Made by a program: the position numbers and the translations under genes
NCBI GenBank assembly: GCA_937921525.1
Contig: CAKZUM010000021.1
Span: 1-64,000 of the forward strand
Direction of reading: 5' to 3'
Length of the DNA: 64,000 nt
Source of the DNA: an uncultured Saprospiraceae bacterium
GTDB lineage: Bacteria; Bacteroidota; Bacteroidia; Chitinophagales; Saprospiraceae
Shown here: positions 4,258 to 23,832 of the stretch, piece after piece
Position numbering within the stretch: position 1 is the first letter of the stretch
Layout of the letters: every line of letters begins with the position of its first letter
Notes under the pieces: generated by a model
Told to the model about the DNA's origin: nothing
The model's input: only the letters and a program-made list of their open reading frames with translations
Databases searched by the model: none

Positions 4258-5505
4258 ATGAAGAAATATTTCATTTTCTTACTAGGATTGTTAGGTGGAG
4301 TCACCCTCTGTATTTTACTATATGAGTACGGCTTAGAATTTATTGTTAACTACTTTGATGATTCAATAGTTACATACATTCTTATCTCATTAATTCTACT
4401 TTCAGCGGCATTGGCTGTATTCTTTGCTGTTGATAAATCAATAACTAAGCTTGAAGATTCATTATTGGTTGAACCAGAAATAGACTTCAATAAAATTATT
4501 AAGGAGCGAAAATGGAACTCAATTAACCTACTAATAAAAAAGAATCAGAAAAAGGTTCTGGCAATGTATTCTCGTTTCAGTATTATGAACTGGACTTTTA
4601 GAGCGATTGGACTAATCATAGTTGGATTTGTTGGTCTATTGGGTTCTGTACTTTTGCACAATCAGAACGAACTAATAAAGAAGCAAAATATAAGACTCGA
4701 TCAACAAACTTATCTTCAAGAGGCAGAACGTAGAAGTTCATTGGTCTTTTTATTTAGTAACATAATGGATGCTATCAATGTGGAGATTTCAAACGACTAT
4801 AATCAAAATAATATTCGAGACTTGTCTCCTCAATTAACGGGAAGAATAATAGCCCTTGCGAATAGATTAAAACCGTATTACTTTATGCAAGGGGATTCTC
4901 TTATTGAAAGTCAAATAAGTCCAGAAAGAGGTCAATTACTTGTCACCCTGATTGAAAGTCATTTGGCAGATAGTACCTTTTCTCAGATAAAACAGCGGTC
5001 AAACTTTAGTTTTTCTGACTTAAATCAAGCCAACCTATCAGGAGTTGACTTAAGTGGAATAAATCTTAAGAATTCAAATATGGTAGGCGCAAATCTTTCT
5101 GGCGCGAAATTATATGGTTCAGATTTTACGGATTCAGATTTAAGTGGAGCAAATTTTTCTAATGCTAAGATACTTGAAACTATATTTGATGATGCAAATT
5201 TATATCGTTCTAATTTTAGAAAAGCAATGGGAACTACTCCTGTTTTTTCTAATTCAAATTTAACAAGATCTAACTTGCAGGATACTAAATTTGATATACC
5301 TATTTTTGACAATACAATTCTAGATAGTGTGATTGTTGATTGTGACTTTATAATTAATCTTATTCATCAAGAAGAGGAAAATGAAATGGATTTAGGAATT
5401 AATGCTATATTAGAAACGTATTCTCTTGATACAATTAAATCGCAAGACTATGAGAAATATAAACCTAGATGTAGATTTGTTAGCAAAGGGGCAAAAAATA
5501 ATTAG
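4258..5505 (+). CDS. membrane pentapeptide-repeat protein (module 2)
   Basis: The 415-residue protein has membrane segments near residues 5-25, 38-60 and 115-135 (the last ending in GLLGSV), then the same conserved block as its paralogue at 213 (RDLSPQL, SPERGQLL). Pentapeptide repeats run from about 245 to 350 in the A(N/D)LSG style (NLSGVDLSG, NLSGAKLYG, DLSGANFSN), more regular than in module 1. A non-repeat tail of about 50 residues follows. Two copies of one scaffold-like gene with two unrelated partners within 5.5 kb suggest an exchangeable partner system. The biochemical role is unknown. Confidence 0.8.
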   Translation: MKKYFIFLLGLLGGVTLCILLYEYGLEFIVNYFDDSIVTYILISLILLSAALAVFFAVDKSITKLEDSLLVEPEIDFNKIIKERKWNSINLLIKKNQKKVLAMYSRFSIMNWTFRAIGLIIVGFVGLLGSVLLHNQNELIKKQNIRLDQQTYLQEAERRSSLVFLFSNIMDAINVEISNDYNQNNIRDLSPQLTGRIIALANRLKPYYFMQGDSLIESQISPERGQLLVTLIESHLADSTFSQIKQRSNFSFSDLNQANLSGVDLSGINLKNSNMVGANLSGAKLYGSDFTDSDLSGANFSNAKILETIFDDANLYRSNFRKAMGTTPVFSNSNLTRSNLQDTKFDIPIFDNTILDSVIVDCDFIINLIHQEEENEMDLGINAILETYSLDTIKSQDYEKYKPRCRFVSKGAKNN

Positions 5506-6529: not shown

Positions 6530-7060
6530 TTAAAAATATACTCTAATACCCACCGCTAAAGCACCATTTCTGCCTAAATGATCGGTAAACATAAAACTAT
6601 TTCCAGCTCGTATATAAATAGACAGTTTTCTAGCCAGTGCCACATCTAGTTCTCCAAAAAACCGTAAACCTATACTTTCATTATTGATAGGGGTTTCTAA
6701 ATTTAATTGTTCCCGTCCAAACACCACACCACTCCCTAAATAGATGCTTAGATTATTTAGAGAGCTGTATTTGAGTCGTATTCCTTTAGCATAGGTCAGA
6801 CTAATTCGTTGTAGATTTAAGGACTCTATATTATACAAATCATCCGACTGCTTAGTTTTAGTATTATTCGCATAGACCAATCGGATTTCATCATAGATAT
6901 TCAAATGATAGTGTCCAGATACCTGAAATCCTTTAGTTAGTAAATGTCCTGCAGCAATAGAAAAGGAATTTGGAATGCGCTCTTGGGCGCTACTTGTTAT
7001 CGTAAATAATATCAAGACCCCTAATAGTGAAAATCTCATAGGCTTATTTAATTGGTTCAT
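6530..7060 (-). CDS. traO: TraO-like outer-membrane protein
   Basis: The start at 7060 (MNQLNKPMRFSLL) is preferred because it lies directly after the traN stop; the longest frame begins at 7078 and overlaps traN. A signal peptide ends near SSAQ. The remainder alternates aromatic and polar residues as in a small beta-barrel and ends in aromatic Phe (GIRVYF), a typical outer-membrane protein end. Position after traN and size match TraO of Bacteroidota conjugative elements, thought to be part of the outer-membrane end of the mating channel. Assignment rests mainly on order and fold pattern. Confidence 0.6.
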   Translation of the reverse strand: MNQLNKPMRFSLLGVLILFTITSSAQERIPNSFSIAAGHLLTKGFQVSGHYHLNIYDEIRLVYANNTKTKQSDDLYNIESLNLQRISLTYAKGIRLKYSSLNNLSIYLGSGVVFGREQLNLETPINNESIGLRFFGELDVALARKLSIYIRAGNSFMFTDHLGRNGALAVGIRVYF

Positions 7061-7061
7061 C

Positions 7062-7982
7062 TTATCTGATTGATTCAATCGGTAATTTGTTATAAGGGAT
7101 CGGCAAATAGATATTTCTACCTTCCTCTACTAACTCGATATAAAATATCTTTCCTTGTGGCACCGCTATTTTATCAAAGACCGCAACATAGGTATTGATC
7201 CTTTTAGGGGATACCCTAGATTCGTGATAATTAGCTATCAATAAAGGTGGAAAAATCGTCTCATTAATCGCTGATTTTTTCGGTCTTCTTTTATCTCGCA
7301 TTCCAAACTCCGTATAACTAATATCATAAGGGATAGCTCCTTGATTACGAACCTGATAGCTAATGAAACAATAGTCTTGACTATGATAGATACCTGTAAC
7401 TTTCAATAGAATATCTCCATGTCGTGCGCTGATGTAATCAAAGCGATTTTTATTCTTTAGTAGTCGTTCCGCTTTTTGTGATAGTTTATCTTGGTCTATA
7501 ACAGATTGAGGGGGTAAGTTTTTAGTAGAGCGATGATTTTTTTGGCTCGTAAAAATCACTTTTTGTTGTACTGGATTTGTTTTCTCTTCTTGTATATCAG
7601 AAGTATTATCCTGATTATCAATTGGTAAGCCTTTAATAGTCTTAGTTTGATCCTCTTCCAATAGCTGCTTAATACTATGACTGGTACGGATAAAGTAATT
7701 GAGTTTAGGACTTTCTGTGTACAAGACATAGAAACTATAGTAGTAATCATCCTTGGTAATGACAGTTAAATTGGTCCTACGCTGGCTTTTGAGCCCCTTT
7801 ACCCTCAAAATGTTATTGGTGTAACTGACAATAAAATTATCATTGTCTCCAATATCGGTATAGAGTATATCAGAAGGGAAAATTAAATGAGAAGTTTGAT
7901 TCTCTCTAATCTCAATCGTCTGGGATTGAGAGAAGGCAAATGGACCAATCAATAATAGAAAGTAAAATAGATATTTGCGCAT
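7062..7982 (-). CDS. traN: TraN (DUF4138, VirB9-like) mating-channel protein
   Basis: A signal peptide (LLLIGPFAFSQ) leads a 306-residue periplasmic protein. The C-terminal half carries the DUF4138/TraN signature: NQGAIPYDISYTEFGMRD with RRPKKSA and PPLL downstream, ending in short beta-strands. In CTnDOT-type systems TraN is the VirB9 counterpart that joins the VirB10-like TraM to form the outer-membrane core. The middle (about 115-175) is low-complexity and probably a linker. It is preceded by traM with 5 bases between. Confidence 0.8.
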   Translation of the reverse strand: MRKYLFYFLLLIGPFAFSQSQTIEIRENQTSHLIFPSDILYTDIGDNDNFIVSYTNNILRVKGLKSQRRTNLTVITKDDYYYSFYVLYTESPKLNYFIRTSHSIKQLLEEDQTKTIKGLPIDNQDNTSDIQEEKTNPVQQKVIFTSQKNHRSTKNLPPQSVIDQDKLSQKAERLLKNKNRFDYISARHGDILLKVTGIYHSQDYCFISYQVRNQGAIPYDISYTEFGMRDKRRPKKSAINETIFPPLLIANYHESRVSPKRINTYVAVFDKIAVPQGKIFYIELVEEGRNIYLPIPYNKLPIESIR

Positions 7983-7987
7983 AGCAT

Positions 7988-9310
7988 TTAGTTTAAATTT
8001 CGATCATATAGCATGACCTGGTAACCAGAAGGAATAGTTGCACCACTCGTTCTATAGGCTTTTCTGCCTAAACGTAGAGAAAGATTACCCAAGGGATTTC
8101 TGATACCCAGACTACCCGCTTCTCGAAGCCCCTCCCGAATAGCTTCTTGTCCGACATCAATATCAGCTCCTTCTACATAAATACCAGGCATCCCATCTAA
8201 GTCATAGACTTCTAAAGCAGAACGGACGACTCGTTGATTGATATTAATAGAGGATACCTGAATTTTAATTCTATTACTGACCGAACAAATACCGTATAGT
8301 ATTTGGTTTGTTTTAATGAGGTATCCTTTATAGTCCCCTCCTTCAGTAATTCTTAAACGGACCTTATCCCCAGATTTTAATTTTTGAGGTCTATCAATAA
8401 TTGCATAGAGTGGGGTATTGTCAGATTGTTCTTTTAAGTAATTGACATTGATAGGTACAGGGTCTTCCGAATAAGAGACCCTCTTTTTGATTAAGCCTAG
8501 ATCATCTTTAACACCCGTATTGGTATCAAACTGTAGTCTATGGGGTTTAGTTTTTTTATTATTACTGGTACCTCTATTGCCACTAGCATTATAATTAGGT
8601 TCACTATGGTAGTCAGGCTCACCATGAAAAGCAGCATACCGGCGTTCATGATCTTCGAGCCCTTTACGATAGGCAGCCGCTTCCACGTCTAAAGTACTTT
8701 CGTCCAGTGCTTTTCGCCTACGTCGATTATCTGCTTTCGCAGCGGCTAATCGAGCTTTTCGTTGCTTTTCTAAATGCGCATAATTACTAGGTTGCTCTTT
8801 TTCGATATTTGCCAAGGTATATTTGATATCCTCCATCGTTTCCAAAGAATCAGGACGAATAGAAATACGATTGATGGGCTGATCTTCTTGGCTCGCTAAA
8901 TTATTCGTGGCACTAGGATTGATCTGAGGATTAAGATTGGCATCAAAGGTAATTGGTACATCGTCTTTTGTTCCCATACTCTTAGCATAGTCTGACCGCT
9001 CCAAAGTTCGCTTCACTTTTTTCATCAAAAAGTTATCATTCTTATCCGACTTGATTAATTCCTCCTTACTCATCGAAAAGACCTCACTCGCCTTGGTCCG
9101 AGTAGCGATGTAATTAATATCCTTTTGCAAGCCAACAGCGACGGATGCTTCTTGAATCGTCTTTTTTACTTTGGCTGATTGATGCACATAGATATAGACT
9201 GCACCACCCACTAACCAAAGTAAGATGGGGGTCAACCATAATAACTTATTGTCTTTAAAGTTTTTAAAATTAAAATTCTTAAAAACCTCGCTTAGTTTTT
9301 TCTTGTCCAT
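7988..9310 (-). CDS. traM: TraM (VirB10-like) transfer channel protein
   Basis: One membrane segment lies near residues 25-43 (LLWLTPILLWLVGGAVYIYV), followed by a long charged periplasmic linker (about 100-260, including an Arg/Lys-rich coiled stretch) and a C-terminal beta-rich domain of about 150 residues. That is the VirB10 layout and matches conjugative transposon TraM, including the terminal hydrophobic strand (GYQVMLYDRNLN). TraM should span from inner to outer membrane and contact TraN and TraK. It lies 6 bases after traK. Length of 440 is normal for the family. Confidence 0.8.
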   Translation of the reverse strand: MDKKKLSEVFKNFNFKNFKDNKLLWLTPILLWLVGGAVYIYVHQSAKVKKTIQEASVAVGLQKDINYIATRTKASEVFSMSKEELIKSDKNDNFLMKKVKRTLERSDYAKSMGTKDDVPITFDANLNPQINPSATNNLASQEDQPINRISIRPDSLETMEDIKYTLANIEKEQPSNYAHLEKQRKARLAAAKADNRRRRKALDESTLDVEAAAYRKGLEDHERRYAAFHGEPDYHSEPNYNASGNRGTSNNKKTKPHRLQFDTNTGVKDDLGLIKKRVSYSEDPVPINVNYLKEQSDNTPLYAIIDRPQKLKSGDKVRLRITEGGDYKGYLIKTNQILYGICSVSNRIKIQVSSININQRVVRSALEVYDLDGMPGIYVEGADIDVGQEAIREGLREAGSLGIRNPLGNLSLRLGRKAYRTSGATIPSGYQVMLYDRNLN

Positions 9311-9316
9311 AGGGTG

Positions 9317-10042
9317 TTACTTTTGTTCTCTTTCGACAAATCGAAGGCGGTTATTTTTTAAGACCACATAGTTTCCAATGAGTAAGCCATGCGGGTTGAG
9401 ATCGGTCCGAGCTACTTCTCGTAAGTCAAGGGTGGTAACTAAGTTTTTTACTAAGAAACCAACCGAGGTTTGCACGACTTCTTTTCCATATTGGACTGCC
9501 TTATAAGGGTAAATCTTAGTGTTGACTTTTACAGAGTCCAAAGTGTACTTGATTTCGGCACTATTAGAAATCAATTTCTTGTAATAGGCATCCCCCCGTT
9601 TATCTAAAAAAGCCTTTACCGAAGCATCCCCCATTAATAGTACCTCATTGAGGGACTTTTCAATTTCACTAGGATCAGGAGAAATATCATAGAGTAGAGA
9701 ATGAAAAGTCCGAACTTGTGCCTTCACTTCCGCCTCCCTATTTTCATTGGCAGCAATTTGATAAGCGGTCAAGGTATTCCCATAGCCATTGGTAATATAG
9801 ATTTTACCTTTTCCCTTGGAGACCATCGACATGGCAACGACCATTACGGTCACGCCAAATAGAAAGGAGAGGGCTAGGGATAAAATAGCGATCAAACGAG
9901 TTTTCTTAAAAGCAGTATCAATATTCATAAGGCAATCTAATCTTTGTGTGGTAGCAGGGGTATGCTCTGCATCACTTATTATAGGTGTATCTGGTTTAGT
10001 AGTTTTCTTCTTTGGTCTAAAGGATTCCCAAATTTTTTTCAT
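9317..10042 (-). CDS. traK: TraK (VirB8-like) inner-membrane transfer protein
   Basis: A short cytoplasmic lead is followed by one membrane helix near residues 52-73 (LIAILSLALSFLFGVTVMVV) and a periplasmic domain of about 165 residues. Features such as NENREAEVKAQVRTFH and YLNE-type turns in a small alpha/beta domain fit TraK of Bacteroidota elements, the VirB8 counterpart that nucleates the inner-membrane part of the channel. The gene sits between traJ and traM as in CTnDOT. Confidence 0.8.
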   Translation of the reverse strand: MKKIWESFRPKKKTTKPDTPIISDAEHTPATTQRLDCLMNIDTAFKKTRLIAILSLALSFLFGVTVMVVAMSMVSKGKGKIYITNGYGNTLTAYQIAANENREAEVKAQVRTFHSLLYDISPDPSEIEKSLNEVLLMGDASVKAFLDKRGDAYYKKLISNSAEIKYTLDSVKVNTKIYPYKAVQYGKEVVQTSVGFLVKNLVTTLDLREVARTDLNPHGLLIGNYVVLKNNRLRFVEREQK

Positions 10043-10112: not shown

Positions 10113-11102
10113 TCACCTCTTATATAAGGTGTCCTTCGCAATCGCCCTTCCTGCACTAGCCACCCCTCTAGTAGCAGCAGTTGTTAATAAAGCGCCTGCT
10201 CGACCCATCCCAGAACCTGAAATAACCCAACTAGCCACAATAGGAATAGTGAGATACCCAGCGATCAGTACGAGTAAGAAGATCCAAGACCAAGTGGTTA
10301 GAATGACAGAATTGACCGAATCTTCTAAACCAAGCCCTCTAGTCCAAAAGCCGCCATTCTCCACAATGACTCGCCAAATTCGCACCGCCATTGCTTCAAA
10401 AATATTCCCAATGCCGAGCCATAGATGAACGCTGAGATAGCGACCTAACCAGCGCATATAATTAGATTCAAAGCCTGGGAACATACTTATACCAATAACT
10501 AGAGGACCACAGATATATAAGACGACCAGAATAAAAACTCGTAAAGCATTAATAATAATGAGGATCGCATGGGAGAGTCGAAAGAGAATTTCTTCAATAA
10601 AGCGCATTAATGCATAGTAGAATTTTTCCCCAACCCATTTAAAGACATTTAGACTTCCAGAAACGGCATCCGTTAATTCATCCACCAAACTCGCTTCCTC
10701 TTCTCCTTCCTCTGCATGAATATCTTCGATCCCTAGTAAGTTATCATCATTGTCTGTTTCCGGATCTAAATCTCTAGTTTTTAAAATATCTGTTACTCGA
10801 TATTCATCCGTAATCATTGCTTGACCTAGAGAAGTATTAACGGCCATGGCTATACCATCAATAACCAACATAAACTGTGGATAGAGCATTAGCACTAAAG
10901 CCAAGACAAAAGGACGCAAGACTTTTAGACTAAATAAATCTCCTCCACCAAGCATGGCATTATAAGCTAGCAATGCAGTATATAATAAAGCACCAATAGC
11001 GCCTATGGCTCGACCAACAATGACGACATCTGCTGCAATTAGAATCAAATCATTGCGAATGATCTCTAGTACTATTTGAATATTAAAAAAGCCATCTTCC
11101 AT
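10113..11102 (-). CDS. traJ: TraJ (VirB6-like) polytopic transfer protein
   Basis: The 329-residue protein has several membrane segments near 18-50, 62-85, 160-215, 225-245 and 268-300. A central acidic loop (about 100-145, rich in Asp and Glu) lies between them. The glycine-rich C-terminal helices (VASWVISGSGMGRAGALL) are typical of TraJ/VirB6 proteins, which line the inner-membrane DNA passage. It follows the five VirB5-like genes and precedes traK, the expected position. Confidence 0.8.
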   Translation of the reverse strand: MEDGFFNIQIVLEIIRNDLILIAADVVIVGRAIGAIGALLYTALLAYNAMLGGGDLFSLKVLRPFVLALVLMLYPQFMLVIDGIAMAVNTSLGQAMITDEYRVTDILKTRDLDPETDNDDNLLGIEDIHAEEGEEEASLVDELTDAVSGSLNVFKWVGEKFYYALMRFIEEILFRLSHAILIIINALRVFILVVLYICGPLVIGISMFPGFESNYMRWLGRYLSVHLWLGIGNIFEAMAVRIWRVIVENGGFWTRGLGLEDSVNSVILTTWSWIFLLVLIAGYLTIPIVASWVISGSGMGRAGALLTTAATRGVASAGRAIAKDTLYKR

Positions 11103-11181: not shown

Positions 11182-11790
11182 CTATTCAAAAAGATTCGTA
11201 AATACTTCTAATTCTTTTTGCTGTCTTTTAATTGCATAGAGGTGTCTATTGGTTCGACGCACTGTGGCATACATGGAGCGCTTAATCCGTTTGGCTTCTT
11301 TCAAAGAATGCTTAATTAATTCAATTCGTCCCTTGTCATCAATGATCCCTTTGTTTTGTTGAGTCGCTAAATCGAATAATTCAAAAACCTGTTGCGCTTC
11401 CAAGAATAATTGTCCCAAAATCCAACGGTACTTCCACTTATCTGTAAAATCCTCCGCAGCATCTAATCTTTCTAAAGAGCGCATGTATAGTTTAATAATA
11501 TCCTTTTCTACTTCAATTAGTTCTTTGGTCATCTTTAGATTCTTCACGACCGCAGAGACTATATCACTAGCGACCTTAAAGAATTCTTGCACCTTTGAAA
11601 TCTTTTCAATAAAACCATTTTCTAATAAGGCTTTGATACCAGTAGACACAGATGCAGAGTAGGCTTCTGTGGCACTAGTCTTCGTATGCTCTGAATCTAT
11701 GACAACAGTTACTTGTGCTAGAGTTCTAGATGAAGTAGCCACACAAAGAAAAAGTATCAGTAATAGTATCAATAGGATTCGCTGTATCAT
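11182..11790 (-). CDS. VirB5/TraI-like secreted protein, paralogue 5
   Basis: The last of five tandem paralogues, 202 residues. A signal peptide ends near TLAQ. The mature part is almost entirely helical and shares the family pattern: KVQEFF, VVKNL, a hydrophobic helix with a KWK motif, DDKGRI, and a basic C-terminal helix with RRTNRHLYAIKR ending in EVFTNLFE. The layout resembles TraI (DUF4141) of CTnDOT, the VirB5-type protein between TraG and TraJ. It carries no calcium-type insert and reads LDAAEDFTDKWKYR at that point. Confidence 0.6.
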   Translation of the reverse strand: MIQRILLILLLILFLCVATSSRTLAQVTVVIDSEHTKTSATEAYSASVSTGIKALLENGFIEKISKVQEFFKVASDIVSAVVKNLKMTKELIEVEKDIIKLYMRSLERLDAAEDFTDKWKYRWILGQLFLEAQQVFELFDLATQQNKGIIDDKGRIELIKHSLKEAKRIKRSMYATVRRTNRHLYAIKRQQKELEVFTNLFE

Positions 11791-11826
11791 AGATTAATTG
11801 ATTTACAGATATATGATCCAAAAGAC

Positions 11827-12486
11827 TTAACCAAATAGGTTATCAAAAACCTCTGCCTCTTTTTCTAACCTTCTATATTGATAAATCTCTCGATTGATTC
11901 GACGCAGTTGTAAGCGCATCGCACTTTTAATTTTCAATAAACCTCGATGTGTTTCTATTAGAAATTGAACCCTGCCACTATCGTCCAATGTCAAGGCATC
12001 CTCTTCAATCAATTGATTGAATAATTCAAAAGCTCCTGTTGCTTCTGTACTCAATGCTAATAGTATTTGTGCATGTTTCCATTTATCCAGAAAATCTAAA
12101 TCATCTACGCCATCCACATCGGTATCCACTGGCGTATTCAAAACCGCAATAGATTGAGCATAGAGCTGAAGAATATCTTGATGGGTATCAATAATTCGTT
12201 CCACCGTCCTCATATTCTGAATAACTGCCTTAACCGCAGTATGTGCTTTTTGAAAAAATCGCTGGACATTTCTAAAAGTCTTTACTAATGGTTCCGCCGT
12301 TTGCTTAATAAATTGAGACGCCTGCTGCACTACACTAGTGGTCCTACTTAACCAGCGACCTAAATAATCTGCAGTAGGCACTTGGGAAGTGGCCAGAGAG
12401 ATCGGCACTAGTTGAAAGAGTAGCATCAAACAAAGGGAACGTATTAAGCTTCTAGTAAATAGACTCATTATAGTAAGTAGACTCAT
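11827..12486 (-). CDS. VirB5/TraI-like secreted protein, paralogue 4
   Basis: The paralogue has a signal peptide (an internal Met7 start is possible) and the shared helical body. In front of DFLDKWKHAQILL it has the insert DTDVDGVDDLD, an Asp-rich loop of the thrombospondin-type-3 style that usually binds calcium. The C-terminus RRINREIYQYRRLEKEAEVF is nearly identical in pattern to the neighbours. It probably forms or caps the pilus-like part of the mating apparatus, by analogy to VirB5. Confidence 0.6.
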   Translation of the reverse strand: MSLLTIMSLFTRSLIRSLCLMLLFQLVPISLATSQVPTADYLGRWLSRTTSVVQQASQFIKQTAEPLVKTFRNVQRFFQKAHTAVKAVIQNMRTVERIIDTHQDILQLYAQSIAVLNTPVDTDVDGVDDLDFLDKWKHAQILLALSTEATGAFELFNQLIEEDALTLDDSGRVQFLIETHRGLLKIKSAMRLQLRRINREIYQYRRLEKEAEVFDNLFG

Positions 12487-12491
12487 TATTA

Positions 12492-13136
12492 TTAATTTTC
12501 AAAGAAAGCCTCGAAAGTTTGAATCTCTCGATCTAACTTTCGATACTGATAAATTTCCTTATTGATTCTTCGTAATTGTAAACGCATAGCCGCTTTAATC
12601 TTCCGCATATCCCGATACGTTTTCTCAATGAGCATAATGCGCCCTTTATCATTAATGGTCATGGCATCATCTTCGATAAGGGTTTCAAATAATTCAAAGA
12701 CACTGGCGGACTCTTTCACTAGTGCTAAGAGTATTTGTGCATGTTTCCATTTGTCCAAGAAATCATTGTCTTGATCTTCATTCAATGCGCTTAGAGACCG
12801 ATCATAGAGTTCTACAATATCGCGTTCCAGTTCTACAATCTTTTTGACCATCCTCATATTTTGAATAGCCCCATTGACAATGGTACTGGCTTTTCTAAAA
12901 AAATCCTGTACATCTTTAATGGTTTCCTGTAGCGGTTTTTCTCTTTCTAACAAGAATAGATGTGTTCCCTCCACAACACTATTAGTAGTATTGGGAGCTA
13001 ATAGTCCATTATCCATGACTGCACCAACTGGAATCTGTGTGAAGCCAGACACGCTGATTACTAGATAGAAGAGTAGGGTAGTGCCTCTTCTTCCAAGAGG
13101 ATTTATCTGTTTACTAAATGTAGATTTACTCTTCAT
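12492..13136 (-). CDS. VirB5/TraI-like secreted protein, paralogue 3
   Basis: The start at Met7 (13136, MKSKSTFSK) is preferred; the longest frame begins at 13154 and overlaps the previous gene by 29 bases. A hydrophobic signal segment (TTLLFYLVISVSGFTQ) precedes the helical family body with VVNGAIQNMRMVKKI-like, DNDFLDKWKHAQILL, NDKGRI and RRINKEIYQYRKL segments. The Asp-rich insert of paralogues 1 and 4 is reduced to a short EDQDND. The sequence is closest to paralogue 4, which suggests recent duplication. Confidence 0.6.
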   Translation of the reverse strand: MKSKSTFSKQINPLGRRGTTLLFYLVISVSGFTQIPVGAVMDNGLLAPNTTNSVVEGTHLFLLEREKPLQETIKDVQDFFRKASTIVNGAIQNMRMVKKIVELERDIVELYDRSLSALNEDQDNDFLDKWKHAQILLALVKESASVFELFETLIEDDAMTINDKGRIMLIEKTYRDMRKIKAAMRLQLRRINKEIYQYRKLDREIQTFEAFFEN

Positions 13137-13740
13137 CCCCAAACAATCTATCAAAGACCTCCAATTCCTTTTTAGTCCTTTGAATTTCTGAAAACTCTTT
13201 ATTGATTCGTCTTACTGCCACACGCAAAGAGGTATACACTTTTCTAGCCTTTTTTAGACTATCTCTAACTAGGATGATTCGATTCTCATCATCCATTGTA
13301 CCCTGTTCCTGTATGGCAATATTGAATACATTAAAGAGATCGAGTGATTCCTTATAAACTTCATAGAGGATGATCCGATGTTTCCATTTTTCTTCAAAGC
13401 TTTCTGCTTGATCTAATTTCTGAATACTACTGCTAAATAGTTTATTGATCTTATTCTCCATTGCGATCAGATCATTGACCATTCCTAAGTTTTTCACGAC
13501 TATATTCACCTTCTGACTTGCCTGCTGAAAAAACTGCTGTACCTTAGATATTCGATCTTTCCAAGGAAGAATATCTTCTCGAATCGCCCTAGAAGCATTA
13601 GCGACTACTTTAGCAATTGCACCAATTGCATTATTGGCTACATCAATAACAGGAGAGGCAAGTATCTGTGCATTGGTGTTCGGCGCATACGCCACATTGA
13701 AAAACAAAATAAGTGCTGTTAAAAGGCATAGTCTTTTCAT
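13126..13740 (-). CDS. VirB5/TraI-like secreted protein, paralogue 2
   Basis: The protein has a signal peptide ending near NTNAQ and a helical mature part with KVQQFFQQAS, VVKNLGMV, FEEKWKHRIILYEV, DDENRI and RRINKEFSEIQR, ending DRLFGDEE. There is no Asp-rich insert. It overlaps the following paralogue's start by about 11 bases, and 11 bases separate it from paralogue 1, so the group is translated as one unit. Paralogues 2 and 5 form one sub-type (FEVF/ALD without insert); 1, 3 and 4 form another. Confidence 0.6.
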   Translation of the reverse strand: MKRLCLLTALILFFNVAYAPNTNAQILASPVIDVANNAIGAIAKVVANASRAIREDILPWKDRISKVQQFFQQASQKVNIVVKNLGMVNDLIAMENKINKLFSSSIQKLDQAESFEEKWKHRIILYEVYKESLDLFNVFNIAIQEQGTMDDENRIILVRDSLKKARKVYTSLRVAVRRINKEFSEIQRTKKELEVFDRLFGDEE

Positions 13741-13751
13741 CTAATCAATTT

Positions 13752-14393
13752 TTAAGAGCCAAAGAATTCGTCAAATATTTCCAGTTCTTTTCTAACTCGG
13801 CGATATTCATAAATCTCCCGATTGATTCTTCGTATTTGGGTCTTAATAGCCGACTTAATTTTAAAGCTATCATTATAGGCATCCTTGATTATGGTTAATC
13901 GACCTCGATCATCCATAATCATCGCATCCTCCTCGATTACATTTTTGAAAAGCTCAAAGACCCCATCTGCTTCCGCTGCAATTCCTAAGAGAATTTGTAT
14001 ATGCTTCCATTTATCTAAAAAATCTAGATCATCAATACCATCGCCATCTTCATCCAAAGGCTCGTTTAGTCGATTAATAGATTGGCTGACTAAGCGAGCT
14101 ATATCTTTTTCTTGTTCAATTAGCGCTTTTACCAGCTGTATATTTTTCACTACACCACTAACAATCGTAGAAGCCTTAGACATAAATTCCTGGAGCTCCT
14201 TGATGTTTTCCACCGCTAGAACTACTCGCTGATTAATAACCAAAGAAGCCTTTTGTACATCTTCTAAAATTTTACTCCACCCATTATGCTTTTTATCCCT
14301 TACAGGCACCTGCCCAGAAATAGTCGACAATGCCAGGAAAGAAAGCAACAGCAGAAATAGCAATCTTCTAATAGTGTTTATTTCAAAAAACAT
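13752..14393 (-). CDS. VirB5/TraI-like secreted protein, paralogue 1
   Basis: The first of five tandem copies, 213 residues. A signal peptide ends near STISGQ. The body has KELQEFMSKAS, GVVKNIQLVKALIEQEKDI and then the insert DEDGDGIDDLD ahead of DFLDKWKHIQILL, a near-perfect thrombospondin-type-3 calcium loop. The end is DDRGRL followed by RRINREIYEYRRVRKELEIF. The genomic place between VirB4-like TraG and VirB6-like TraJ is that of TraI (VirB5 position). Function as a pilus-tip or adhesin component is inference. Confidence 0.6.
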   Translation of the reverse strand: MFFEINTIRRLLFLLLLSFLALSTISGQVPVRDKKHNGWSKILEDVQKASLVINQRVVLAVENIKELQEFMSKASTIVSGVVKNIQLVKALIEQEKDIARLVSQSINRLNEPLDEDGDGIDDLDFLDKWKHIQILLGIAAEADGVFELFKNVIEEDAMIMDDRGRLTIIKDAYNDSFKIKSAIKTQIRRINREIYEYRRVRKELEIFDEFFGS

Positions 14394-14449: not shown

Positions 14450-15013
14450 TTAGGCACTAGACTCAATCCCCTTAAACACAATCGCCTTATAATTTTTATC
14501 ATTGCTAATTAGCGCATTTTGTACCTGCTCCTTGATATAGCGAATAAATTCTTGGGTATCTTTTGGTTTGACAGATGGATTCTCGCCTCGCAACACCTGA
14601 TGCACTCGAATAATCCCAATACCCACTACCGCCAAATCAATTTTAAATTTAGCATACTGGATTTGTCGCAAGAAAAAGGCTTTCTCCTGTCCAACATCAA
14701 ATACCGTTTCTAATTCTTCTTTAAAAGAGGATTGGTCTACTGGTTTTACCTCACTTATTAGATCTAGCCGAATCTCTTCATTGGTTTGAGCGAAATCTTT
14801 ACTAGCCTGTGTAAATTCCTGATAACTCGTATGGACCTCTTGAAAAGGCGTAGTCGTTTTCGTTTTCATCGCCTCCAAGTTTTCTAAGAGCGCATCTATA
14901 CCTTTTTCCTCAGCCTGGGCTATGGTCGCTTCTGTACGTTGCTGCTGACAAGCAAAGAACACACTATAAATAAGACATAGCACTGCCAGTATCCTTATGG
15001 GTAATTTCTTCAT
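14450..15013 (-). CDS. transfer-operon lipoprotein of unknown function
   Basis: A lipoprotein signal is visible: hydrophobic stretch ILAVLCLIYSVFFAC with Cys22 as the likely acylated residue. The mature part (about 165 residues) is helical and rich in Gln, Glu and Lys. It lies between traG and the VirB5-like array. A VirB7-like stabilising lipoprotein or a surface/entry-exclusion lipoprotein are both possible; neither is shown by motif. Confidence 0.6.
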   Translation of the reverse strand: MKKLPIRILAVLCLIYSVFFACQQQRTEATIAQAEEKGIDALLENLEAMKTKTTTPFQEVHTSYQEFTQASKDFAQTNEEIRLDLISEVKPVDQSSFKEELETVFDVGQEKAFFLRQIQYAKFKIDLAVVGIGIIRVHQVLRGENPSVKPKDTQEFIRYIKEQVQNALISNDKNYKAIVFKGIESSA

Positions 15014-15083: not shown

Positions 15084-17477
15084 TTAGTCGTCTAAGTACT
15101 TAATAATCGCATACTCTAGATCTCCTGTTTCCTCCGCTATCGCATCTATTTCCACACTATCCGCAGCTTCTGTTGTAAACATGGCTGCTTCTTGTGGAGA
15201 GACTAAAACAGAATATACTTTCCCTGCACTCCCAAATCGAATATAGACATCTTTAAACCGCTCTCCAGTTCGAGGCACTTTATTAATGCTCATGACCTTT
15301 TTAGTCTCACTGGCTTGTAGTCCCAATAATTTAGCTAGTTCCTCAAAACGAGTCTGGTACTTGGTTTGATCGAGTAGTATTTGTATATCCGCATTATTTA
15401 AGATCGTATTCTTAACAAAAGGATTACCGACAATATCTTCTAGTTCTTGAGTGATAATACCAACAGCACCGTTGAACTTCCGCACCGTCTTATACAAATA
15501 TTTTAAAAAGTTCGCCATCCCTGTATTAGAAATAGCAGACCAAGCCTCTTCAATCAAAATGATCTTACGTACCTTTTTATGCTTCCTCATCTTGGCAATG
15601 AAGGCTTCCATAATAACCAAAGCTACCACAGGAAAGATCACCGAGTGATCTTTAATCTCGTCTAATTCAAATACACAGAAAGGTAAATCGGCAATAGAGA
15701 ACTCCTCTTTAGAATTGAGTAGATAATCATACTCGCCACCTTTATAATAAGGCTTCAAGACCATTTTAAAAGAAACGATGTCAAAATACTTTTTCTCATC
15801 CTCTCCGATCATTTGAGAAAATTCTCCTTGTACAAATTCATAAAAGGAATTGAAATTACTAGTCGCTTTCTGTGTTTGAATGTATTTATAGTAGGTCAGA
15901 ATACATTTACTTAAAATTGTGTATTCCTCTTTACTGGCTTCCTTACTTTCTCCTTTCCATAGGGTAAAGATCAAGGTCTTTAAAGATTCTTGCTCTTCGA
16001 GATTCTTAGATTCATTGGGTGCAACATAGAATGGGTTAAACGCCATTTTTGATTTAGCGGTATACTCAAAGTATTTACCATTCATGTAATTACAGAGCCG
16101 GCGATAAGAACCACCTACATCTATAATGGTAATATGGTATTGCTGCTCTAGTAACTGGCGCACCATATTATTAACAAAAAAGGATTTTCCAGAACCAGAA
16201 GGTCCTAATACAAACATATTTCGATTCGTGATTAAGCCCTTTTTCATGGGTAGATCCCACATATCAATCGTGATCGGAATTCCATAATCTCTTTCACTGA
16301 GTTTAATTCCATCAATTCCGGAATTTTTAGGATTAGTCTCAATCGGTATATACATCGTCGCTGTTTCTGAAAACTGGATTTGAAATTCACTTAAAGGGAT
16401 ATCTCCAGCATTCCCAGGGGTACAACCCCAAAAGACAGTGGCACAGTTAAAATTCCGTTGGGCAAAGCAATCCATTTTAGCCAGCGCATTATTCAACTCG
16501 TTTTCTGCTTTTTCTAATGCTTTCCCTTTACCCCAAAGCATTACATTCTGACTGACATAGACCGGATCTTTTCCATCCCGCAGTTGCACTGATAGGAATT
16601 CATCAAATTCATCTACTGCTTTTTCATTCTCTCGACTCTTAAAAGTCATAGACTTTAATTTCTCTCTACGCCGAGATAAGTCTTTTCCCATCTTATTGGG
16701 ATCATGTTTAACAATAATCGTGTTCACAATATGAGGGTAGGTAAAACCAATCCCAATAGAGTAGGAGTAGGACCGATCAAAGAAATCATCAATATTATTT
16801 TGACTATCTACTTCCAAAGGCATATCTACATCAGGCGCAATAGTATTATAAAGTACTACTTCATCGTCTCCAATTTTAATATGATCCTTTTCGACAAACA
16901 AATCTTTTAGGATGCGCTGATTACCGAGATTATAATATTCATTTAATAAGGTAACGAGTTGCCTGCCTTCCAACTGCTGAACGCCCAAGCCATTTCCATT
17001 AATAATGGTACTAGAAAGAATATGCTGAATTTTACGAACGACATTACTAAATTCAGGAATCCCATCTAATATATCCCGTTTGATGAGTCGACCCGTAACG
17101 AAGCTAGTCATCAAGTTAGAAACAAAGGTATCTGCAATAGGGACTTTGGTAATAATGATGTACGTCCGATGATTCAAAAATGGTCTGCCTTGAAAAACAG
17201 ATTCATAGGCATTGGATAGGAAAGTAGTACCTTGTTCCCCTCGATCATAATGCTTAGTAATAAAGTAATCTTGCTTGTGAAAGACATAGCCTTTTGGGAG
17301 TGCCTTAATGATTCTACTGAATAGTTCATACATGCCTTCCAATTGTTCTTCAGATAGACTATAGGCTTCTGGCATGTTTAATTCTAGCACCACAGAAATA
17401 GCCTGTGTCTTACTAATGGCAAAACCATTTTCTATTTTCCAAATAGGAATTCGTTCACTTAAATTGATGGTTCTCAT
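15084..17477 (-). CDS. traG: TraG, VirB4-family conjugation ATPase
   Basis: At 797 residues it has the standard TraG length. The P-loop GPSGSGKSF lies near residues 424-432, and the Walker B region KIILIEEAWSA with a downstream GIITQELEDI lies near 640-680. The N-terminal domain of about 400 residues is of the VirB4/CagE type. This is the cytoplasmic ATPase that energises assembly of the type IV channel and pilus. It begins 5 bases after traF ends and is the best-conserved gene of the operon. Confidence 0.92.
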   Translation of the reverse strand: MRTINLSERIPIWKIENGFAISKTQAISVVLELNMPEAYSLSEEQLEGMYELFSRIIKALPKGYVFHKQDYFITKHYDRGEQGTTFLSNAYESVFQGRPFLNHRTYIIITKVPIADTFVSNLMTSFVTGRLIKRDILDGIPEFSNVVRKIQHILSSTIINGNGLGVQQLEGRQLVTLLNEYYNLGNQRILKDLFVEKDHIKIGDDEVVLYNTIAPDVDMPLEVDSQNNIDDFFDRSYSYSIGIGFTYPHIVNTIIVKHDPNKMGKDLSRRREKLKSMTFKSRENEKAVDEFDEFLSVQLRDGKDPVYVSQNVMLWGKGKALEKAENELNNALAKMDCFAQRNFNCATVFWGCTPGNAGDIPLSEFQIQFSETATMYIPIETNPKNSGIDGIKLSERDYGIPITIDMWDLPMKKGLITNRNMFVLGPSGSGKSFFVNNMVRQLLEQQYHITIIDVGGSYRRLCNYMNGKYFEYTAKSKMAFNPFYVAPNESKNLEEQESLKTLIFTLWKGESKEASKEEYTILSKCILTYYKYIQTQKATSNFNSFYEFVQGEFSQMIGEDEKKYFDIVSFKMVLKPYYKGGEYDYLLNSKEEFSIADLPFCVFELDEIKDHSVIFPVVALVIMEAFIAKMRKHKKVRKIILIEEAWSAISNTGMANFLKYLYKTVRKFNGAVGIITQELEDIVGNPFVKNTILNNADIQILLDQTKYQTRFEELAKLLGLQASETKKVMSINKVPRTGERFKDVYIRFGSAGKVYSVLVSPQEAAMFTTEAADSVEIDAIAEETGDLEYAIIKYLDD

Positions 17478-17482
17478 ATTGG

Positions 17483-17809
17483 TTATTTAGTAGTTGAGTG
17501 ATCTTCTCCTTCCTGCAGTAATTGCCGCTCTAATAAGGGAAAATCATTTCGAATATGTTTAGGTTGAAAGAGCTTCGCTATTAAGATCACTAATCCATAA
17601 TCCCCGTATTTTGTACCAATACGGTAAAGAGAAATATTGATTCCTAGACACAGGCCCATCCAGAAAATGACCATCAACCAGTTATTATTCATCGTACTCA
17701 TTGCTGCAAAAACAATACAGCAGATAAATACGACAATCATTAATCCGATGTAGGACATAGATAATCCTGCGTAGGATAGATCTTTGAGTTTGTAGGTTCG
17801 TTGTTTCAT
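17483..17809 (-). CDS. traF: TraF (DUF4133) membrane protein
   Basis: The 108-residue protein has two membrane helices (about residues 16-37 and 43-62), then a soluble tail. Size, topology and location between TraE and TraG fit DUF4133/TraF, the VirB3-like component. It is tightly linked to traG with a 5-base spacing. Confidence 0.8.
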   Translation of the reverse strand: MKQRTYKLKDLSYAGLSMSYIGLMIVVFICCIVFAAMSTMNNNWLMVIFWMGLCLGINISLYRIGTKYGDYGLVILIAKLFQPKHIRNDFPLLERQLLQEGEDHSTTK

Positions 17810-17940: not shown

Positions 17941-18327
17941 TTATCCACCTATTCCAAAAAAGGACTGAATAACAGTAACGGCAACGATTAAAAAAATCGC
18001 AGAACCGAACCAACTAGCAGCAGTTGACATGACCTCTGGATCACCCATCTGCCACTTCATAAATACCCTCACAGCACCCAGTAAAGAGATGATTCCAGCC
18101 ATGATAAAAACAAGCGTCCTGATTGGATCGAAGTACTCCTCAATGCCTGTTGCAGCTTCTTCAATAGCGGCTTGACCATCGGCTAATTCGACTTGACCGA
18201 ACATAGAAAAGGTGCATAACATGGCAAATAAAATCAATACTGGTTTTGTTATTTTGCGAGTATATCGAATAGATATGTCACTCGGACTTGTCAAACCACT
18301 AAAATTGAACATAGATAATTTTCTCAT
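17941..18327 (-). CDS. traE: TraE (DUF4134, VirB2-like) membrane protein
   Basis: An N-terminal signal-like region (residues about 25-45, ending MFGQ) is followed by two membrane helices (IRTLVFIMAGIISLLGAVRV and FGSAIFLIVAVTVIQSFF) with a short polar loop containing KWQMGDPEV. This is the typical DUF4134/TraE layout, the pilin-like VirB2 counterpart. The short gap to traF (131 bases) holds no other credible gene. Confidence 0.85.
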   Translation of the reverse strand: MRKLSMFNFSGLTSPSDISIRYTRKITKPVLILFAMLCTFSMFGQVELADGQAAIEEAATGIEEYFDPIRTLVFIMAGIISLLGAVRVFMKWQMGDPEVMSTAASWFGSAIFLIVAVTVIQSFFGIGG

Positions 18328-20390: not shown

Positions 20391-21113
20391 CTACCTTGTA
20401 GAAAGAGGAATAGTTGATTTTTTTTCTACTTGAATTACTTGAAGAAAATTCTCTACGAATTGGTAGAATTTTTCTGTTTCTTTTTTCTTAGGCATTGGGA
20501 AAACCGTACTTCTACAAAACCGCTCATATAACTTGTATGCCCCAACCTCTTGTTCCATAAAATCAATTTCTGATAATTGATCTTTGATGGACTGTGTTTG
20601 ATTTCTGGCATGTACTCGATTGAAGAGTACCTTGCATCCCATAAAAGCATCACTTATAGGTTGGACTTGTTGCATTAGTATATTATACAATTCCATAGAA
20701 CTGTAAATAGATAAGTCATCTTCGAATATAGGAATAAAGAAATGATTGATTGCTTGAAAAAAATCAACGATACCTGGTTGATTGATCGTACCACCAATAT
20801 CCACAAAGATGATGTCATAGTTCTCTTTATGTTCTTCAATTGTTTTTCCAACTTCCGTTAATTGGCAATGAATAATTGGATAGGGTGTTCGATCTGCATA
20901 AATTTTATCATACTTCTTTTTAATGGTAGGATTGTTGGCGACGACATATAATTCCCGTTGTCGTTTTTTATAGATACTAAGCTGAGGATAGTCTGCATCT
21001 ATCAATAAAACTCGAAACCCTTTTTTATGATAAAGGGCATTGAGTAACATCATGGTAAGGGTAGACTTACCGACCCCTCCCTTTTGGGAAAGCAGTGAGA
21101 GCGTTATACACAT
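20391..21113 (-). CDS. ParA/TraA-type ATPase
   Basis: The deviant Walker A motif QKGGVGKST sits at residues 9-17, followed by VLLIDADYPQLS and later IIFVDIGG, the pattern of ParA/MinD ATPases. Length (240 residues) suits both plasmid ParA and conjugative TraA proteins. It is the first gene of the leftward operon, next to the repeat-bearing control region. Partition of the element, or positioning of the transfer machinery, is the likely role. Confidence 0.85.
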   Translation of the reverse strand: MCITLSLLSQKGGVGKSTLTMMLLNALYHKKGFRVLLIDADYPQLSIYKKRQRELYVVANNPTIKKKYDKIYADRTPYPIIHCQLTEVGKTIEEHKENYDIIFVDIGGTINQPGIVDFFQAINHFFIPIFEDDLSIYSSMELYNILMQQVQPISDAFMGCKVLFNRVHARNQTQSIKDQLSEIDFMEQEVGAYKLYERFCRSTVFPMPKKKETEKFYQFVENFLQVIQVEKKSTIPLSTR

Positions 21114-21590
21114 ATTTAGAGAGAATTAGCACTACGCTCAATTACACCAGAACCAACTTTAGAATATCAAAGGAAGGTTTACTCATTGACAATAGCATGT
21201 ACTGTTCAAAGCAATAGCTTGTCAATAGAAGTTAGTGTAGTTTTCCGTAGTTTTTTGAATAAATTTATGTTATAGCTAACTCAATAGAACGAGGCAAACA
21301 AATCATATAGTTGGCCCTTTATTTGAGTTTAGCTGATGATCTAAAGAGTTAAAAAATATTTTGCTTTTCTAACTTTTAGAAGCTATAAATTTTTAATAGG
21401 TAGGTTAATACGAAATATAATATTAGGATTCGATACTAGCAAAGGAAAAGAAAAAAAATATAAACACCAAAAATAAATTCAAAAATTTACAAAATATTAT
21501 TTTTGATAATTGATGAATTTAAAAAAGGAATAGTAGAGAAATCATTCGAATTATGAGTTGTTGAATTGTTTAATTTTTGAGTTAAAAAGT

Positions 21591-21718
21591 GCTTCAACTC
21601 ACAAGTGCTTCAATTCACGAATGGTTCAACTCATGAATGCTTCAACTCACGAGTGCTTCAACTCACGAGTGGTTCAACTCATGAATGGTTCAACTCATGA
21701 ATGGTGCAACTCATGAAT
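21591..21718 (+). repeat. eight tandem 16-bp iteron-like repeats
   Basis: Eight back-to-back units start at 21591, 21607, 21623, 21639, 21655, 21671, 21687 and 21703. The consensus is GSTTCAACTCAYGART, with no spacer between copies. Units 4 and 5 are identical, as are 3, 6 and 7. Sixteen bases is close to 1.5 helical turns. Such arrays bind replication initiators, partition proteins or relaxosome proteins; no Rep gene is seen in the window. Confidence 0.9.
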
Positions 21719-21799
21719 CTCTAACAGAAGTAGTAAACAGATTTAATCTGCTACTAGGAAAAGAAAATCATAAAAAGGAGACAATGAAAAAGTTGTTCC

Positions 21800-21872
21800 A
21801 CTCATGAGTTGATGAGTTGAATTCTAATAGTAAGAACCCTAAATAAAAAAGTTGAAAAGTTGATGAGTGGAA
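21800..21872 (-). repeat. inverted and palindromic copies of the iteron core
   Basis: ACTCATGAGT at 21800-21809 is a perfect palindrome containing the iteron core. GATGAGTTGAA (21811-21821) and TTGATGAGTGGAA (21860-21872) are near-copies in the opposite orientation. Another opposite copy, TTATGAGTTG, lies near 21551 on the other side of the array, so inverted copies flank the direct array. Confidence 0.7.
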
Positions 21873-21916
21873 ATAATAGAGGATGACAGTGATTTATAAG
21901 TGGCAAGGAATGTAAA

Positions 21917-21934
21917 TGTATATACGTATATACA
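21917..21934. promoter_or_regulatory. 18-bp perfect palindrome upstream of mob genes
   Basis: TGTATATACGTATATACA is a perfect palindrome about 270 bases upstream of the relaxosome gene. It looks like a binding site for a dimeric regulator, possibly the relaxosome protein itself. The regulator is unknown. Confidence 0.5.
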
Positions 21935-22200
21935 AAAATGACAAAAAGAAAGCTATAAAAATATTCCAGAAACTATCAAAAAGGTAGTGAGAATACAAGA
22001 AGATTTAGCCCTAAAAAAATCAAAAAATATTAGGCTAAAAGTGTTTAAAAAATAAATTGTGAGAATTGCTTTGTTTTTCTTATCTTAGATAAAGCGATTT
22101 AATAAATAGTTTTTTACTCCCCATCCTTACACCACATTTTATCTTTTAATACCAACCTATTAGTCATTTTTTTAATCGAAATCTACTAGAAAAAGTACCA

Positions 22201-22563
22201 ATGAAGCAAGTAGTAAAAGAAAAACGAAGTACTGTTTTACCAGTTATTCGAGTTAGTCCAAGCGAAAAAGAAGCAATCAAAAAAGCTTATTTAGCTTCTT
22301 CCTACGCTAACCAATCGACTTTTATAAGATCTACTTTATTAGAAAAATCTTCTCTTACAGTTAATGAAAAACGCTTACAAGCAGAACTTACTGCAGGAAA
22401 AATATATAAAGAAACTACAAAGATTGAAGCTCAAATTCTAAAAATGGTTCAAGAATTAAAGATAAAAGAAGGAGGGCAATTGAATAAAAAACACTTACTG
22501 CCTTACGCAAAATTACTGCAAAGTATTAAAATAATTAAAGCACAATTAAACGAAGAAGACTAA
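22201..22563 (+). CDS. relaxosome accessory (MobC-like) protein
   Basis: The 120-residue basic protein starts with a ribbon-helix-helix-like segment: VLPVIRVSPSEKEAIKKAYLAS followed by STFIRSTLLE, the usual pattern of MobC-type relaxosome proteins (split here only for description). The C-terminal half is helical with Lys-rich ends. It ends 2 bases before the relaxase gene. It should bind oriT next to the nick and recruit the relaxase; autoregulation from the upstream palindrome is possible. Confidence 0.75.
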   Translation: MKQVVKEKRSTVLPVIRVSPSEKEAIKKAYLASSYANQSTFIRSTLLEKSSLTVNEKRLQAELTAGKIYKETTKIEAQILKMVQELKIKEGGQLNKKHLLPYAKLLQSIKIIKAQLNEED

Positions 22564-22565
22564 AT

Positions 22566-23816
22566 ATGATTTCAAATATTACTTCAGGAAACAGTTTTTA
22601 TGATGTGGCGATGTACAATCAAAAGAAAGTAAATCAGCAGGAGGCGAGTATATTATATAGTCAAAAATTAAGAGGCACGAAACCAGAAACCTTACAAAAA
22701 GCCTTTCAAAATTATAATTTATCCATTAGCACAAAACCCGTTATTCATGTTTCTTTAAGCTTTGCGCGAGAAGATGAAGGGCAATTAACTGATGAGAAGA
22801 TGGTAGCCCTAAGTCAAGAATATTTACAGAAGATGGGCTATGGCAAACAACCATATATTATATATAGACACTTTGATACACCTCATCCACATGTTCATAT
22901 ATTAAGTACAAGGGTTGACATTGAAACGCAAAAGCGAATTAATGATAGTTTTGATTATATCCGTTCCAAGCAAATAACAGAGAAAATGGAGCAGACATAC
23001 GGACTAACAAAAGCAGATCAACAAACCAGTATTAAATCAAAATTGGTAGATCATCTCCAGTCTGCCTTTCAAAAAGACAGACCTGAAAATATTACCCAAT
23101 TAAATCAAAGCCTAGAAAAACGGAATCTACCTGTACGAGCTAGAGAAACTCAAAAAGGATTGATTTATCACGGAGTAAGGGAGGATGGAGTGAGGCACTC
23201 TAAATACTATCGGTCTTCGATTTATAAGGAGGTAGGCTTAGATGCCCCTAGTTTGCAAGCCCAATTCCAGCAGAATATTCAGGCTAAACAATATTTAAAA
23301 ACCGCTATTGAGCAAGCGCTACCCCAAGAAGGAAAAACGAGTATTGGACTATTTTCCAAAGAGCTTCAATCAAAAGGGATACTTACAGATTTTAGAGTTA
23401 AGCCAGATGACACTATTAATATCAGTTACCAATACAAAGACCATGTATACAAGGATGCAGTTATAAAAACAAATGCACAGGAACAATTAGTCTTTCCAAC
23501 CCCCCAAGACTATCATCTAAGAGAACAATTGACCCGATCCATTGCGGCTAATGAACCTTTAGAATTAGGTTATGAGAATGGTAAAGTTACAGTTACGACT
23601 CCTGATCCAGTATTAGAAAAAGAATTGAATAAACGGTCCAATGGAGAAATTTTAGCCTTATCAGATTTTCATAAAGAATACCGATCAGAATATCAACAGG
23701 CAGGTAATTCTGGTATCCGAAACGCAGTACTTGCTTTAGCTGCCACCGATATAGACGATTCCCTACAGGAACAAATTAATAGAGAACGAATCGATCAAAG
23801 AGAGATCAGGAGATAA
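22566..23816 (+). CDS. MOBP-type relaxase (MobB-like)
   Basis: Relaxases nick oriT and lead the DNA strand into the recipient. The N-terminal SGNSFYDVAMYNQKK holds the probable catalytic Tyr17. The three-histidine metal motif appears as YRHFDTPHPHVHIL near residues 99-111, preceded by the strand VIHVSLSFA. These match Bacteroidota MobB/MOBP relaxases. The C-terminal half (about 200-416) is unassigned. It is translated with the accessory protein (2-base gap) and followed 16 bases later by the coupling protein. Confidence 0.88.
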   Translation: MISNITSGNSFYDVAMYNQKKVNQQEASILYSQKLRGTKPETLQKAFQNYNLSISTKPVIHVSLSFAREDEGQLTDEKMVALSQEYLQKMGYGKQPYIIYRHFDTPHPHVHILSTRVDIETQKRINDSFDYIRSKQITEKMEQTYGLTKADQQTSIKSKLVDHLQSAFQKDRPENITQLNQSLEKRNLPVRARETQKGLIYHGVREDGVRHSKYYRSSIYKEVGLDAPSLQAQFQQNIQAKQYLKTAIEQALPQEGKTSIGLFSKELQSKGILTDFRVKPDDTINISYQYKDHVYKDAVIKTNAQEQLVFPTPQDYHLREQLTRSIAANEPLELGYENGKVTVTTPDPVLEKELNKRSNGEILALSDFHKEYRSEYQQAGNSGIRNAVLALAATDIDDSLQEQINRERIDQREIRR

Positions 23817-23832
23817 CTAATTACAACTAACT

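Follow-up and report, generated by a model that had tools for sequence, protein, structure and literature searches.

Five tandem TraI/VirB5-like genes in a single CTnDOT-type transfer operon of an uncultured Saprospiraceae bacterium

Introduction

In the R388 system, VirB5 (TrwJ; TIGR02791) is the product of one gene and forms a homopentamer, which sits on a pentamer of VirB6 and points its N-terminal part outward (PMC9259494); a review has warned that the model of pilus nucleation still awaits testing (PMC12857230). The Trw type IV secretion system of Bartonella carries tandem trwJ (virB5) copies in its operon, where trwL, trwI and trwH are duplicated as well, and the tandem VirB5 copies have been interpreted as variable pilus components for adhesion to specific hosts (PMC2610397). 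In elements of the CTnDOT type, the slot between TraG/VirB4 and TraJ holds TraI (DUF4141, PF13605), a protein of ~210 aa with a signal peptide, which is a single gene wherever it has been found.

We describe here a transfer operon in which this slot holds five related genes. The window, by which we mean the whole stretch of 64,000 nucleotides analysed, comes from an uncultured Saprospiraceae bacterium (contig CAKZUM010000021.1, positions 1 to 64,000). The five genes, termed c1 to c5, resemble TraI in slot, signal peptide and length, but they are five in number and fall under the PF13605 cut-off. With VirB5 they have in common the VirB4-VirB5-VirB6 gene order and an exported helical product, yet there are five of them, and neither sequence searches nor fold comparison of two models gave a direct match to VirB5. 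The array is like that of Bartonella Trw in its tandem layout and differs from it in that the VirB5-type gene alone is multiplied, with each copy fixed.

The transfer operon and its five-gene array

ORF calls in the window placed five consecutive minus-strand ORFs of 202-220 aa, homologous to each other, at 11182-14393 in the interval between TraG/VirB4 and TraJ/VirB6; they are co-oriented, tightly packed and similar in length. All of the neighbouring genes named next are likewise on the minus strand. Upstream of the array, family matches identified TraE (DUF4134, VirB2-like pilin; 17941-18327), TraF (DUF4133, VirB3-like; 17483-17809) and the TraG/VirB4 ATPase (15084-17477; P-loop_TraG, 6.9e-156). 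Downstream are a single-copy, VirB6-like TraJ (10113-11102; TIGR03782, 1.5e-40), TraK (VirB8-like; 9317-10042; TIGR03781, 4.1e-40), TraM (VirB10-like; 7988-9310; PF12508, 1.7e-25) and TraN (VirB9-like; 7062-7982; PF13595, 7.1e-40), all 4 proteins scoring under the NCBIfam equivalog cut-offs. A probable TraO (6530-7078) was assigned by position and by its counterpart in another locus (L016), and gave no Pfam match. A putative lipoprotein gene of 187 aa (14450-15013) lies directly ahead of the array, after VirB4, in the position of TraH; its counterparts at L016 9228-9851 and L145 4007-4630 are membrane-anchored, and the gene is conserved at 187-207 aa, with no family match. Genes for ParA, a NikA-like protein, a MobA/VirD2-type relaxase and a TraG/VirD4-type coupling protein with a YWFCY domain, at 20391-25710, complete the conjugative module. 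With TraE, F, G, J, K, M and N, a relaxase and a coupling protein all present, the comparison confirmed the predicted placement of the array, in the VirB5 slot of a CTnDOT-type transfer operon that reads TraE-F-G-(5x)-J-K-M-N.

The same contig carries cargo of the copper-type metal resistance class (31244-62846), which includes a 1639-aa ORF (34163-39082) that fuses an AcrB-type pump to an outer-membrane efflux domain, 2 HlyD/CusB-type proteins, a multicopper oxidase, a heavy-metal P-type ATPase and MauG-type peroxidases. Two pentapeptide-repeat proteins are encoded at 189-1385 and 4258-5505, immediately downstream of the transfer operon.

In the order of transcription, the TraI/VirB5-like paralogues, all on the minus strand, are c1 (13752-14393; mature N-terminus QVPVRDKKHNGW...), c2 (13126-13740; QILASPVIDVANN...), c3 (12492-13154; QIPVGAVMDNG...), c4 (11827-12486; QVPTADYLGRWLSRTTSVVQQ...) and c5 (11182-11790; QVTVVIDSEHT...). 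The likely true start of c3 is the ATG at 13136, which overlaps the 3' end of c2. Pairwise BLASTP, run on the proteins without most of the signal peptide, gave E values of 1e-21 to 1e-58 for all 10 pairs, at 32-48% identity and 75-171 bits, and the top score against 1000 shuffled copies was 25.8 bits; the 5 proteins are beyond doubt homologous to one another. At the DNA level, similarity among the copies is weak (67-71% over 150-240 nt, for some pairs), and the sole exact match, of 29 nt, arises where 2 ORFs physically overlap; the array is therefore not an assembly artefact.

Every copy opens with a signal-peptide-like segment that is followed by a near-invariant glutamine, aligned in 18 of 19 sequences. 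This residue, Q28 in c1 numbering, is the probable mature N-terminus, a placement consistent with the Q-rule described for signal peptidase I substrates of Bacteroidetes (PMC5837995, PMC10653852). Across 15 homologues, the strictly invariant residues, again in c1 numbering, are Q28, F70, A74, V78, N84, I98, L101, K128, W129, I134, L135, E141, F146, F149, D162, R165, R188, R189, N191 and F211. The sequence-only reading of this DNA had proposed five tandem paralogous secreted helical proteins in one transfer operon, and the 10 BLASTP comparisons and the operon neighbours bear it out. The motifs that it quoted are present, but are looser than it had them: copy 1 has ELQEFM for KVQxFF, copies 2 and 3 have DDENRI and NDKGRI, respectively, for DDxGRI, and copy 5 has RRTNRHLY for RRINREIY.

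Relationship to TraI and VirB5

Taken singly, none of the 5 proteins reached the cut-off of a named Pfam or NCBIfam family, and the PF13605 (DUF4141) model matched no copy and no other protein of the genome. A profile built from the 5 copies, however, matched DUF4141-type TraI with 95.6% probability (E 1.2e-8) in a profile-profile comparison that was colinear over 165 columns, compared with 0.5% for a reversed TraI profile; it also matched other TraI paralogues of the order (95.5%; reversed control, 0.2%). Among single copies, c3 matched the DUF4141 TraI profile at 93.8%, and copies 1, 2, 4 and 5 did so weakly, at 21-73%, so that the DUF4141 link, as judged from these profiles, is firm for the pooled profile and for copy 3. 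We also observed that a 15-sequence profile weakly retrieved genes from other genomes (E about 1e-5), of which the 3 that were read are each the only TraI gene in a VirB4-TraJ interval, and a fourth is in the same place as a DUF4141 match.

Single-copy TraI, in its turn, matched VirB5 (TIGR02791; 2.1e-8) and TrbJ (2e-5), both under the curated cut-offs; an NCBIfam search gave no direct match of c1-c5 to the VirB5 models. From the profile link to TraI, the match of TraI to VirB5 and the VirB4-VirB5-VirB6 gene order, we therefore place the 5 copies in the VirB5 slot. The proposed TraI/VirB5-like identity is upheld by the pooled-profile match and by TraI's own match to VirB5; the DUF4141 profile search suggested along with it failed for each copy, and it was the profile-profile comparison that disclosed the homology.

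AlphaFold2 models of copies 1 and 5 were long helical bundles of moderate confidence (pLDDT 74-75, pTM 0.51-0.54). Foldseek with these 2 models gave no match at E<0.001, and similarity to VirB5 was not detected, with no VirB5 among the matches listed; the leading, non-significant matches were long-helix proteins of a generic kind, among them PA28, axonemal proteins and designed bundles. A profile search of the PDB gave chance matches only.

Age and conservation of the array

Exactly 5 copies are present on each of 2 separate contigs of a genome of the same genus (G007; MAG CPBay_Spr30G08_47). A genome from another genus of the same family (G1146) has a counterpart of the gene in the lipoprotein position, copies 1-3 and copy 4 up to residue 101, where its contig ends; the position of copy 5 lies beyond. 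Copy order is identical in the window, the 2 G007 elements and, as far as its contig reaches, G1146.

In maximum-likelihood trees of these 4 elements, copies clustered by position rather than by element. Copy 1 grouped with its positional equivalents in G007 (both elements) and G1146 with support of 100/97, and the other copies likewise formed clades of their own (c2, 96/94; c3, 100/99; c4, 99/96; c5, 85/85, its position in G1146 being past the contig end). The positional labels needed the minimum possible number of changes on the tree, which was reached in 0 of 200 shuffles. A deep split separates c2/c5 from c1/c3/c4 (100/100), and no exchange among copies was seen. The phylogeny called for by the sequence-only reading has thus shown old paralogues, each a clade across elements.

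Between the 2 G007 elements, dN/dS was 0.099, 0.084, 0.068, 0.032 and 0.138 for copies 1-5, respectively, and 0.065 for TraJ; dS was near saturation, which makes these values rough, and only their low order of magnitude counts. Each copy is by this measure under purifying selection. Orthologues in the window and G007 are 53-60% identical, within the 48-73% range of the structural Tra proteins E-N. Over the first ~40 mature residues, orthologues are 66-74% identical and paralogues 20-29%, as against 35-46% for paralogues in later segments; paralogues thus diverge chiefly in the mature N-terminus, just where orthologues are most alike. Net charge over the first 45 mature residues has a constant sign for each copy in all elements, positive for c1, c2 and c4 and negative for c3 and c5, a pattern that is suggestive only.

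These observations indicate that the array is old and fixed. Recent duplication or an assembly artefact, raised earlier as a possible source of the copies, was rejected: trees by position, purifying selection on each copy and weak DNA similarity speak against it, and so do protein identities of 32-48% and recovery of the same set in independent assemblies.

Copy number in related operons

In a sample of 393 genomes from the phylum, every DUF4141 match stood apart from the others, with no clusters. A different picture was obtained from 40 operons, mainly of the window's order, that were fetched by VirB4 similarity and in which copies were counted by BLAST clustering: TraI-family genes between VirB4 and TraJ numbered 1 in 5 operons, 2 in 6, 3 in 28 and 5 in 1. 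Two of the two-copy operons, G262 and G321, belong to the window's family and each contain 2 further genes for secreted proteins that match the profiles less strongly (E 5e-7 to 3e-4), and so probably have 4 copies.

The three-copy sets of family f21, from the same order, resemble the window in having several paralogues in the slot, and their 3 positions (T1, T2 and T3) are orthologous groups across operons. All 5 copies in the window fall into one clade (100/100) that excludes T1, T2 and T3, a result that suggests, with uncertainty due to the long inter-family branches, that the five-copy set is a separate expansion. Orthology of the 5 copies to the three-copy set is disfavoured by the tree, with caution owing to the long branches and to copy 2, which, taken singly, matches T2 well (96.5%, profile-profile).

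Hymenobacter plasmids also carry multiple TraI-family genes in the slot, although with fewer copies and different sequences: NZ_CP141185, NZ_CP095066 and NZ_CP043647 each have 2 full-length genes, annotated as hypothetical, between TraG and TraJ, and 2 of the 3 plasmids have in addition a divergent lipoprotein-like relative. The Bacteroides ovatus plasmid NZ_CP081918 has one TraI. On that plasmid (L130, 10161-12495), traI is shortened and has a reverse transcriptase/maturase gene immediately upstream, suggestive of a group II intron within it. On the Spirosoma oryzicola plasmid unnamed6 (L132, 8984-9059), there is no annotated gene between TraG and the ORF in the TraJ position, and the operon may be TraI-less. 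The VirB4-TraJ interval of another genome (G759; L126, 6749-9505) holds 3 similar-looking ORFs of 220 aa and one of 259 aa with partial TraI-profile matches, possibly another independent expansion.

Arrays of the five-copy type were found only in the window's genus and G1146, in 4 partly overlapping searches that covered 101, 399, 395 and 348 genomes (relatives, order, class and family, respectively). No relatives were found in viral contigs, or in a plasmid collection searched with copy 1. Multiplication of TraI is thus widespread, with 5 the extreme among the operons examined. The statement that such systems normally have one TraI holds for the DUF4141 type in the 393 genomes and for the Bacteroides plasmid, but not for the window's order, where 28 of 40 operons have 3, or for the Hymenobacter plasmids, with 2 or 3.

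Discussion

We consider it likelier than any single competing account, and slightly better than an even chance overall, that the 5 proteins are fixed, non-redundant VirB5-like subunits of a stalk or pilus tip that assemble together, the outcome of an old TraI expansion in a CTnDOT-like machine. The proposal builds on the homology, position and fixed order that we observed for the copies, and on their separate conservation and N-terminal specialisation. The TraI (VirB5-type) gene would long ago have expanded in tandem to 5 genes, all presumably expressed together from one operon. Each product would be exported by Sec, lose its signal peptide ahead of the conserved glutamine and form a long helical bundle in the periplasm, and the 5 non-interchangeable subunits would then assemble into a stalk or tip on a single VirB6-like TraJ, which is unduplicated beside the five-fold VirB5-type gene. 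Such a mixed assembly would replace the homo-oligomer of single-VirB5 systems, with a stoichiometry that may or may not be one of each. Among the possibilities raised from the sequence at the outset, a hetero-oligomer seems to fit best. The copy number equals that of the VirB5 pentamer; operons with 1, 2, 3 or probably 4 copies argue against a strict rule that equates copy number with pentamer stoichiometry. An obligate one-of-each hetero-pentamer on TraJ/VirB6, in which each of the 5 positions has a dedicated N-terminus and tip symmetry has been broken more than once in Bacteroidota, is a bolder version that we regard as unlikely.

The alternative that survives best, a possible if less probable one, is that only 1 or 2 of the proteins act as the VirB5 tip and the rest, derived from it, serve the same apparatus in the periplasm or at the surface, with roles such as chaperone, mating-pair stabilisation or surface or entry exclusion. 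The deep c2/c5 versus c1/c3/c4 split, the strong N-terminal specialisation and the sufficiency of 1 to 3 copies in other operons agree with such a division of labour, but all 5 copies share the core invariants and a similar length, and no element seen departs from their order or from their place between VirB4 and VirB6.

It is improbable that the copies serve different recipients as alternative tips or adhesins, the role proposed for trwJ/trwL of Bartonella Trw. That system is a documented case of tandem VirB5 duplication in which surface proteins vary (PMC2610397, PMC12857230), and the most paralogue-specific part of our proteins is the N-terminus, the region that projects outward in R388 VirB5. 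Yet the same paralogues are kept in 4 elements, window-G007 orthologues are no more divergent than structural Tra proteins, and the trees gave no sign of exchange. The different pilus tips or recipient-binding surfaces of the sequence-only reading are not favoured because each copy is conserved one-to-one over the 4 elements with low dN/dS (0.03-0.14), unlike a switchable or diversifying repertoire of the Bartonella kind.

That unrelated secreted helical proteins fill the slot is very improbable: no copy has a convincing Pfam or NCBIfam match, VirB5 was missing from the Foldseek matches listed and coil-rich helices can inflate profile scores, but the reversed-profile controls were negative and the five-copy profile independently finds TraI genes in the same slot of other genomes (the 3 that were read, and the fourth at the DUF4141 match). 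Least credible of all is that traI was amplified neutrally or for dosage, its copies not differing in function, or that the array is an artefact. The tandem layout might suggest this, but the low protein and DNA similarity of the copies, purifying selection on every one of them and the recurrence of this set in independent assemblies and in a second genus speak against it.

If the 5 proteins do co-assemble as fixed VirB5-like subunits, the array would bear on the make-up of the conjugative pilus tip and its contact with the recipient, an open question for which models have so far rested on single-VirB5 systems with 5 identical subunits. In the literature searched, we found no published description of the variation from 1 to 5 TraI-family genes. 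This variation, in one slot across Bacteroidota and in genes annotated as hypothetical, is an overlooked axis along which conjugation systems differ, in a phylum that spreads resistance genes, and the conserved five-gene set beside a single VirB6 offers a natural test for an asymmetric tip.
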